Origin: an uncultured Latescibacterota bacterium
GTDB taxonomy: Bacteria > Latescibacterota > UBA2968
Reading direction: 5' to 3'
Length of the DNA: 64,000 nt
Assembly (NCBI GenBank): GCA_951812755.1
Contig: OX638329.1
Coordinates: forward strand, 3,294,522 to 3,358,521
Shown here: in pieces, positions 12,331 through 16,742 of the stretch
How positions within the stretch are numbered: position 1 is the stretch's first letter
Layout of the letters: each line of letters starts with the position of its first letter
Notes under the pieces: model-generated
What the model saw: only the letters and a program-made list of their open reading frames with translations
Databases searched by the model: none
Told to the model about the DNA's origin: nothing
Program-made: the position numbers and the translations under genes

Positions 12331-13815
12331 TTGAGAGGAATGTGTGTAAGCAATTTACACGGTGTTGAGGTCGGGCAGGTCTTTACTCCGATTAAATGGG
12401 CAGAATGGCTTATCGAGCGGTGGGGTATTTTCGATGCGTGGATTGATGGGGCTTCTATTTGTGATCCGACAGCAGGACAGGGCGCTTTCGCGCTCGCGCT
12501 GTTCCGTCTCGCCAGATCGAGAGGTGTGCGGGTGTCGTCAGAGCTTCTTTCGCGGCTGACTTTGATCGAAGTAGATGCGTCACATCACCATGCGTTCCAG
12601 CTTAAAGCGCGTCGGAAATTTGAGATTGATTTCCCCACATCTCAGCTTCTCGCCTTAGATGTGATTACAGATCCTCCAAATACGGAGTACGATATTTTAT
12701 TTGGCAACCCGCCGTGGGCAAATTTTACGGATTTGTCCGATTCATATAAGGAGAGACTCAAGCCTTATTTTTTGGCAGAAGGCCTGGTTCCCGATAAAAA
12801 ACAGGTTCTTCTCGGTTCTTCTCGCACCGATATAGCGGCTCTGGTTTTGAAGGTCGTGCTGGGTAACTTGCTGCGGAAGAATGGGATAGGGTGTTTCTAT
12901 GTGCCACTCTCTCTCTTCTCTGGTGATGCTCATAAGGGATTCAGGGACTACATTGCCAGTGGTCGGAAATTTACGGTGGATGAGGTCTGTGAGTTTACTG
13001 CGACAGAGGTGTTCGAAGGGATAGGTACATCTTATTGCTGTGCCAGGTTTCGCATGGATGTGCCACACAAATTCCCCGTCAGGTATTTTAGAGAGCGCAG
13101 TGGTGAGTGGATCGAACACCGTGCGGTTCCTCTCAAGGCATCTGACGATCAATGGCGCGTTCTTCAACACGGAGATACTGCTGATCTCGATAGCTCCATC
13201 AAAGTCAAACTATCTCCTGACCAGAAACCGCGTCAGGGCGTGAATACTTGCGGCGCGAATGCGATTTTCATGTTCGAGGATAAGCCAACGCATCTGCCCG
13301 GGGAATTTCTCTTTCCGCTTGCAACAAAGGAGATCTGGAAAAATGGGGATATGGTCCCGCATAAATGGATTTTGCTTCCATACAATAGAAATACAGGACG
13401 ACCGCTTTCGTGGGACCGTATTGAGCAATATGCCGAATTGAGACAATATCTCATTGAGGTTAGAGGCAAACTGGAAGGTCGGAGAGGTACCTTGATCCGA
13501 TCTGCTATTGCCAAAGGCGTCTGGTGGTCGCTGCTCGGCGTTGGCCCGTATTCTTTTGCACCCTATAAGATTATCTGGGAGGCTTATGGCAAGAATCACT
13601 TCCATCCGGTGATCTTAAACAGGGAGGAGAGACAGGTGTGGCAGGCGAATCAAGCGATGCAGGCGTTTATCCCTTGTTGGAACAGAGCCGATGCAGAACG
13701 GATTTGCTCTGCACTGCAACATCCGGGTATTCCCACTTTGTTGAGACAACTCAACGGAGAGGGAAAATGCAACTGGGCACAGCCGGGAAAGATCAGAAAG
13801 ATTCTTTCATTGTGA
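12331..13815 (+). CDS. Orphan N6-adenine DNA methyltransferase
   Basis: The protein opens with GQVFTP, typical of N6-adenine methylases, then the SAM-binding motif I (DPTAGQGAF, about residues 45-53) and the catalytic motif IV NPPW (about residue 130). The C-terminal half (from about 280) resembles target-recognition regions of Eco57I/TaqI-like enzymes. Predicted role: transfer of a methyl group to adenine in a specific DNA site. No restriction nuclease, specificity subunit or phage-defence partner is adjacent, so it is either a solitary regulatory methylase or a restriction-system relic. The start is unclear: TTG 12331 with GGAA upstream, or ATG 12340 directly abutting AGAGGA. A consensus promoter lies at 12166-12194. 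Confidence 0.85.
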   Translation: MRGMCVSNLHGVEVGQVFTPIKWAEWLIERWGIFDAWIDGASICDPTAGQGAFALALFRLARSRGVRVSSELLSRLTLIEVDASHHHAFQLKARRKFEIDFPTSQLLALDVITDPPNTEYDILFGNPPWANFTDLSDSYKERLKPYFLAEGLVPDKKQVLLGSSRTDIAALVLKVVLGNLLRKNGIGCFYVPLSLFSGDAHKGFRDYIASGRKFTVDEVCEFTATEVFEGIGTSYCCARFRMDVPHKFPVRYFRERSGEWIEHRAVPLKASDDQWRVLQHGDTADLDSSIKVKLSPDQKPRQGVNTCGANAIFMFEDKPTHLPGEFLFPLATKEIWKNGDMVPHKWILLPYNRNTGRPLSWDRIEQYAELRQYLIEVRGKLEGRRGTLIRSAIAKGVWWSLLGVGPYSFAPYKIIWEAYGKNHFHPVILNREERQVWQANQAMQAFIPCWNRADAERICSALQHPGIPTLLRQLNGEGKCNWAQPGKIRKILSL

Positions 13816-13844
13816 TGTTCGTTATGTGATATAGAGGAGGCTTT

Positions 13845-14417
13845 ATGAAAAAAATAATCTGGATCGCGTTGCTGGTGGTATTCGGTACTTTTGGATGGGG
13901 GCACGCGCAATTGCCCGATGCGCCGAATAAGGTGCGTCCCCTGATGGTTGGCGATGAAGTCCCCGCGCTGACGCTCGCTGATGCGAATGGGCGGGCGTTT
14001 GACCTGGGCGCGCACAAAAAGCCGACGATTTTGATTTTTTATCGCGGATACTGGTGACCGCATTGCCGACGGCAGTTGGGACAACTGCAGGAACTGAAGT
14101 CAGAGTTGGATGGTTTGGGATTTGAAATTATTGCTATTGCGCCCGATCCGCCTGAAAAATTGGCTGAGGTGCGCGATCGCGTGGGTCTCGAGTTTTCACT
14201 ATTATCGGATGTAAAATTTGAGGCAGCAAAGGCTTATGGCGTTGCGTTTATGAATAACAGAAAACGCTCTTTACCCGTGCCATCGGTCTTTGTGATTGCC
14301 CCCAATCGCAAGATCCAATTTCAATATATTAATCCCAATTATCGCGAACGCATCGACAACGATGTTCTCGTGGCGATGGCAAGGGCGGTGGCGCGTGATT
14401 TTGAGATTGGGCGGTAA
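13845..14417 (+). CDS. Exported peroxiredoxin-like selenoprotein (in-frame UGA as Sec71)
   Basis: Reading through the TGA at 14055-14057 gives one 190-residue protein. It has a signal peptide (MKKIIWIALLVVFGTFGWGHA), an AhpC/TSA-Redoxin start (GDEVPALTLADANGR), the active site FYRGYW-U-PHC, and an intact thioredoxin fold to a normal C-terminus (LPVPSVFVIAPNRKI). Relatives have FYRGxWCPxC, so UGA falls exactly on the first, catalytic cysteine: Sec71-Pro-His-Cys74. A 17-base stem-loop at 14072-14088 meets the bacterial SECIS rules. GAGGAGG precedes the ATG by 4 bases. Role by family: thiol peroxidase or disulfide reductase, here probably periplasmic. Alternative: a nonsense mutation of a TGC/TGT cysteine codon. 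No selABC or selD lies in this window. Confidence 0.78.
14055..14088 (+). promoter_or_regulatory. UGA codon with candidate bacterial SECIS element
   Basis: UGA at 14055-14057 is followed, after 14 bases, by GCAGTT (14072-14077), loop GGGAC (14078-14082), AACTGC (14083-14088). The distance from UGA to the apical loop is 20 bases and the loop begins GG. This fits the published bacterial rule of 16-37 bases and a G among the first two loop bases. SelB-bound Sec-tRNA would be recruited here. Confidence 0.6.
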
Positions 14418-15925: not shown

Positions 15926-16240
15926 ATGGCACAAGAAACGACGTTGCATGTAAAACTCGACAGTGAGATGGATGAAAGACTCCAGCTATTGGCAAAATCT
16001 CGGCGTAAAAGCAAAGACCAACTCGTACGCGAGGCGCTTTCGGCATGTTACCAAATTTCATTTGTCGATCTGCCCCTGCATCAAAGCCAGGCACTTGTAG
16101 CTTATCAAGGTGGATTCATTAGTCTTGGTAAACTGGCGCGTGTGATGGGAATGCACATTTTACAATTGAGGCAGTGGCTCAAGGAACATGGGATTGATCA
16201 GAACAGTGCGTATGCCAATGAGGATACGGTCAATGCCTGA
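15926..16240 (+). CDS. Antitoxin: ribbon-helix-helix plus UPF0175-like domain
   Basis: Residues 1-45 form a ribbon-helix-helix DNA-binding unit (TLHVKLDSEMDERLQLLA). Residues 60-92 (YQGGFISLGKLARVMGMH) look like the helix-turn-helix of UPF0175 antitoxins. GGGAGG lies 6 bases before the ATG. The gene's last codons overlap the start of the downstream PIN-domain gene by 8 bases, the classic antitoxin-first arrangement with translational coupling. It should bind and neutralise the toxin and repress its own promoter in the 140-base gap upstream. The two-domain make-up is unusual but not unknown. Confidence 0.75.
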   Translation: MAQETTLHVKLDSEMDERLQLLAKSRRKSKDQLVREALSACYQISFVDLPLHQSQALVAYQGGFISLGKLARVMGMHILQLRQWLKEHGIDQNSAYANEDTVNA

Positions 16241-16742
16241 AGACATGTCTCATTATTACTTTGACACAGTGACATTATGCAATTTTGCACTGACAAATCA
16301 TCTGGATTTGTTGATCGCGCGTTATGGTTCCAGGATTCAGATTACATCTCCTGTTTTGGATGAAATTACCGATGGTATTATGGAAGGATATCATGCATTG
16401 CGAGAAATAGAAGATGCTGTCAGGACAGGTGTGTTTGCTCAAGCGGACATTTTGAAAGGTCGGGAAAGAGAAATATTTCGTGATTTATTGCGAATCTTGT
16501 CACCGGGCGAAGCTTCCTGTATTGCCTGTGTGCAAAGCCGTGGTGGAATTGTCGCTACAGATGATAAGGCTGCCAGAGACTGTTGTGTAGAACGGAATGT
16601 GCAATTTACGGGAACAATTGGTATTCTCAAAGTGTGTTGCCGTGATGAGATATTAACACCCCAAGCGGCTGATGCTGTTCTTCAAGCTATGGTTGATGCA
16701 GGATACTTTTCACCTGTTCAGAATATTAGCGAACTTCTTTAA
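16233..16742 (+). CDS. PIN-domain ribonuclease toxin (DUF3368/VapC-like)
   Basis: The ATG at 16233 (MPEDMSHYYFD) overlaps the antitoxin stop; GAGG lies 9 bases upstream. The 169-residue product has the acidic PIN pocket: Asp11 in YYFDTVTL, an acidic LSPGEAS segment near the middle, and ATDDKAARD. The C-terminal part (RGGIVATDDKAARDCC) fits the DUF3368 group of PIN proteins usually paired with UPF0175 antitoxins. Such proteins cleave RNA with Mg2+. Together with 15926-16240 this is a type II toxin-antitoxin module. It immediately precedes the heparinase gene. Confidence 0.78.
   Translation: MPEDMSHYYFDTVTLCNFALTNHLDLLIARYGSRIQITSPVLDEITDGIMEGYHALREIEDAVRTGVFAQADILKGREREIFRDLLRILSPGEASCIACVQSRGGIVATDDKAARDCCVERNVQFTGTIGILKVCCRDEILTPQAADAVLQAMVDAGYFSPVQNISELL

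Follow-up and report, generated by a model that had tools for sequence, protein, structure and literature searches.

Selenoproteins of the peroxiredoxin-like (Prx-like) type with a UxxC motif have been known since about 2005: they are present in the Sargasso Sea survey (PMC1088965), were counted as Prx-like 1 in the GOS survey (PMC2398784), and are listed, with PF00578 and a UxxC or UxxU motif, as the Prx-like thiol:disulfide oxidoreductase selenoprotein family (PMC13188914; PMC9312934). The gene described here lies in a window of 64,000 nucleotides, the whole stretch of Latescibacterota DNA that was analysed, and its product resembles this family by its PF00578 domain, a thioredoxin-like UxxC in place of TxxU, a bacterial SECIS directly downstream of the UGA and the existence of Cys homologues. 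It differs by the sequence FYRG(Y/H)W-U-PHC of its clade and by a predicted signal peptide; its assignment to the family, whose listed representative is WP_010940744.1, is made by domain and motif.

Other described systems are close in fold but differ at the active site. TxxU peroxiredoxin selenoproteins (Prx, PF00578) belong to the same fold family, but their Sec occupies the peroxidatic position, whereas that of the window protein stands three residues earlier. The cd02970 (UxxS) and Redoxin PF08534 (UxxC) selenoproteins (PMC13188914) share the redoxin fold and have Sec as the first residue of the motif, the comparison with the PF08534 form being made by description and domain match; the cd02970 form has UxxS where the window protein has UxxC. 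Exported thiol:disulfide oxidoreductases of the ResA/TlpA type are similar in fold, in the position of CxxC and in export, which is predicted for the window protein, but identity is only about 20%, Sec replaces their first Cys and no membrane anchor is established. Finally, the Cys-form 'FYRGYWCPxC' peroxiredoxin-like proteins of Bacteroidota have the same motif at about 24-37% identity, with TGC or TGT at the Sec position, but they contain Cys and lack an in-register SECIS hairpin, with 2.70 of 6 pairs kept. The initial annotation presented a secreted UxxC form as a novelty, which is overstated, as UxxC Prx-like selenoproteins form a catalogued family. Our literature search on Latescibacterota and selenoproteins returned nothing on point, a weak negative with most subscription journals outside the search, and within this limit the Latescibacterota lineage, the FYRG(Y/H)W-U-PHC clade and its export appear unreported.

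The gene occupies positions 13845-14417 of the forward strand and is preceded by a consensus ribosome-binding site, AGGAGG, at 13835-13840 (+), 4 nt 5' of the ATG, as read directly from the sequence. When its single in-frame TGA, codon 71 at 14055-14057 (+) within FYRGYW-U-PHC, is read as a residue, the frame runs intact from ATG to TAA and gives one complete protein of 190 residues, as initially annotated, with the same ends in 10 genus orthologues. The expectation that annotation pipelines would split the gene in two is plausible, the standard code giving a 70-codon piece and a 113-codon ORF with a TTG start. Residues 1-21 (13845-13907, +) look by eye like a signal peptide, with MKK, a hydrophobic core and GHA|Q, a stretch that is also found in the aligned orthologues; the pLDDT of the structural model is low at residues 1-20. 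In the window, neither Rfam at the gathering score nor ARAGORN returned a match or a tRNA, respectively.

The neighbourhood of the gene is conserved. In 7/7 public orthologue records, a methyltransferase-like gene of NPPW type is found upstream and an MFS-like gene downstream. The upstream gene (12331-13815, +), which has an NPPW motif and keeps its place beside the selenoprotein gene throughout the genus, probably encodes an N6-adenine DNA methyltransferase. Further downstream, two small overlapping genes at 15926-16742 (+), by eye UPF0175-like and PIN-like, could form a toxin-antitoxin pair; among the public orthologue loci, which span only about 3 kb on each side, a single one matches them.

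The TGA is strictly conserved among close relatives. The source genome, assembled in one contig of 6.53 Mb, is 99.6% complete, and all 10 other genus genomes searched have TGA exactly at codon 71 and end after codon 190. The phylum search likewise recovers full-length copies, 77-99% identical and with exactly one TGA each, in 11/11 genus genomes, none of which (0/11) has TAA, TAG or any other codon at position 71. TGA at codon 71 is also found in seven public records (L024-L030), which are largely of the same clade as the genus set; their titles name Latescibacterota or Latescibacteria, apart from one that names Gemmatimonadota. A reading of TGC or TGT in the raw data, which had been named as a refutation, is thus countered by TGA in eleven genus genomes. 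Homologues with Sec that are about 40-49% identical also keep the codon, and in the class the phylum search reveals two more subfamilies with Sec, of the forms FYRGFF-U-xxC and YRSASW-U-GFC (L086-L093 and L088, L095, L097), with SECIS in the same register at about 30-36% identity to the window protein. As initially proposed, the other homologues have cysteine at this position: all 38 of those found in the contig homologue search, mostly from Bacteroidota, have TGC or TGT. In one homologue, G019, the reading frame is broken within its own contig, and the Cys copy of G027 contains several stops. In the tree, three label changes appear, a number that is overstated since L053 is labelled Sec only through a stop elsewhere in its matched segment, its codon 71 being TGC; because the root is arbitrary, we claim no Sec-to-Cys direction. 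Among the genus orthologues, pooled pN/pS is 0.19 over the 119 codons 3' of the TGA and 0.22 in the mature part 5' of it: the downstream codons are under purifying selection.

The source genome contains the complete selenocysteine machinery, whose absence the initial annotation had put forward as a refutation. Profile searches find SelA at C1:4889670-4891019 (580 bits), with SelB adjacent at 4887760-4889640 (385 bits), and SelD at 5934980-5935903 (365 bits), beside which lies a tRNA-Sec with anticodon UCA (5934782-5934875, 73 bits). The SelD gene has one in-frame TGA of its own, in SCGG-U-ASKL. In the phylum, tRNA-Sec is found in 45 of 64 genomes and in 27/27 of those whose homologue has TGA (hypergeometric 2e-6, a descriptive value since the genomes are related).

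A SECIS check of the stretch after the TGA had been suggested, and we find there a hairpin, GCAGTT-GGGAC-AACTGC, at 14072-14088 (+). The bSECIS model specifies a loop of 3-9 nt with G in its first two positions, a stem of 4-16 bp, a distance of 16-37 nt from the UGA and an MFE of at most -7.5 kcal/mol (PMC13188914). The window hairpin agrees with the model throughout, having a 5-nt loop (GGGAC) that begins with GG and starts 20 nt after the TGA, a 6-bp stem, and an energy of -8.8 kcal/mol for the 29-nt segment. On its own it is unremarkable, as 5.7% of random synonymous recodings have 6/6 pairs; the weight of the SECIS case rests on the covariation between clades. Across 18 distinct sequences representing three subgroups with Sec, 97.2% of the cells of the six pairs are intact, and three pairs show changes on both sides, in 19 cells; these covariation counts, like those of co-occurrence with tRNA-Sec, are drawn from related genomes and are not independent events. 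None of 500 shuffles reaches the observed percentage paired, number of both-sides-changed cells or covariation score, and the pairing is destroyed when the partner is slid. Silent changes suffice for two of the three compensations, as seen when CAG-TTG-GGA-CAA-CTG of the window clade is compared with CAA-CTG-GTC-GAG-TTG of L080, where the amino acid stays the same at both Leu codons and at the first Gln codon. Sec copies keep 5.86 of 6 pairs, as opposed to 2.70 in Cys homologues. When the full 57 nt are folded for minimum energy (MFE), a competing helix usually wins and most sequences do not show the SECIS; a named-structure test was used instead, since the proximal arm of the competing helix should be occluded by the ribosome. 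Hairpins are found at about the same distance in selD and in the other redoxin-type TGA genes of the source genome.

All these results support the initial proposal of a probable selenoprotein, and two other readings of the in-frame TGA have to be weighed against it. The gene could be a pseudogene, cut short at codon 71 by a nonsense mutation or a sequencing error, with only the relic of a frame downstream. A bare in-frame stop is all that speaks for such an accident, which is strongly contradicted by the clean and selected 119 codons downstream, by the identical TGA throughout the genus, by the coordinated changes in the SECIS and by the tRNA-Sec present in every TGA carrier; we regard it as having practically no chance of being right. 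Hardly more probable is a read-through without selenium, whether by a general code change or by near-cognate suppression with Trp, Cys or Arg. It draws on the fact that the inserted residue is deduced here from sequence, but TGA is an ordinary stop next door, where the gene just upstream terminates with it at 13813-13815, and the genome has a complete selA/selB/selD/tRNA-Sec set. Moreover, SelD and other redoxin genes have TGA at known Sec positions, the hairpin has the loop G of a SECIS, and the other homologues have Cys at codon 71, all of which point to selenocysteine.

The remaining question is the role of this selenocysteine, which the initial annotation had placed at the peroxidatic cysteine. 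The AhpC/TSA fold that it had assigned stands: AhpC-TSA (PF00578) matches residues 35-159 (13947-14321, +) with E 2.7e-27 and 95.6 bits for a cut-off of 26, PF08534 (Redoxin) matches too (E 9.5e-20), and no NCBIfam model scores above its cut-off for the protein. The export that it had also assigned depends on the signal peptide recognised by eye. The AlphaFold2 model, in which Sec is modelled as Cys, has a mean pLDDT of 90.2 and places residue 71 directly before helix 72-82. The best folds found by Foldseek are Bcp/PrxQ, AhpE and ResA, the ResA CPHC variant 3c71 being the fourth-best match. The domain matches and the rank of the Bcp/PrxQ and AhpE peroxiredoxins would fit a genuine peroxiredoxin selenoenzyme whose peroxidatic residue is Sec, but the alignments oppose it. 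Compared with the TxxC peroxiredoxins of the phylum, U71 aligns with Thr (ACT in L096, ACG in L098) of the PxxxTxxC motif, and it is Cys74 (TGC, 14064-14066, +), invariant in the 22-sequence alignment, that aligns with the peroxidatic Cys. Similarly, SPVC of the PDB match 2cx3 lies over UPHC, with Ser at U71, and in thioredoxin and ResA the counterpart of U71 is the first Cys of CxxC. The TxxU peroxiredoxin of the same genome (STGG-U, L100), moreover, has its Sec at that other position. We thus consider a peroxidatic Sec71 unlikely, although less so than either of the readings without selenium. Because U71 aligns with Thr or Ser and Cys74 with the peroxidatic Cys, U71 opens a thioredoxin-like UxxC motif and is not the peroxidatic residue. 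W-U-P-H-C corresponds to the UxxC of the Prx-like thiol:disulfide oxidoreductase family, and neither the TxxU arrangement, with Thr three residues before a peroxidatic Sec, nor the UxxS of cd02970 is found. The protein is thus a thioredoxin-like UxxC member of that family.

Taken together, the recoding of the UGA and its machinery are supported by computation, as are SECIS, fold and motif; selenium incorporation itself, export, substrate and electron donor are inferred. The gene very probably encodes an exported selenoprotein, a thioredoxin-like UxxC redox enzyme with Sec71 inserted by SelB and SECIS. In the mechanism that we propose, SelB with Sec-tRNA(UCA) would recognise the hairpin at 14072-14088, and selenocysteine would be put in at the UGA at 14055-14057. 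The mature enzyme would have a thioredoxin fold of peroxiredoxin/TlpA type, in which Sec71, just before helix 72-82, could be the attacking residue of the U-P-H-C site, and Cys74 its partner, resolving it via a Se-S bond. The most likely role suggested by the motif is that of a thiol:disulfide oxidoreductase or a thiol-dependent peroxide reductase, which would work outside the cytoplasm. The result mends a gene model that annotation would break in two, and gives a phylum for which we found no described selenoproteome a well-supported Sec enzyme that is probably exported.

Other selenoprotein candidates are present in the source genome. A TlpA/ResA-like protein with WASW-U-GC (L021, C1:5936287-5936631, -) is encoded directly next to selD and tRNA-Sec. 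Three exported redoxin-type proteins have an in-frame TGA, in HN-U-GTC, WS-U-GSC and YG-U-PSC, each with a hairpin after the TGA; their genes, L111 and L112 among them, lie at C1 about 5527200-5528700 (+) and 5758500-5762500 (-). Scans of two of the three proteins show HYDIN/ASH Ig-like domains and a weak match to a dockerin-like or EF-hand C-terminus. One possibility, for and against which we see the chances as evenly balanced, is that the exported redoxin-fold selenoproteins used by Latescibacterota form an expanded set, comprising the UPHC protein, the WASWUGC TlpA-like protein and the secreted UGTC, UGSC and UPSC redoxins with HYDIN/ASH Ig-like and dockerin-like modules. If true, the lineage would be set apart by a thiol chemistry that is based on selenium and takes place outside the cytoplasm. 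A classical Bcp-type TxxU peroxiredoxin, with STGG-U-T and Sec at the peroxidatic site (L100, C1:6466655-6467026, -), is encoded in the genome as well. In a single genome, one protein thus has Sec as the last residue of the four-residue redoxin motif (TGGU) and another has it as the first (UPHC), a pair that offers a natural test of the contribution of Sec at each position.
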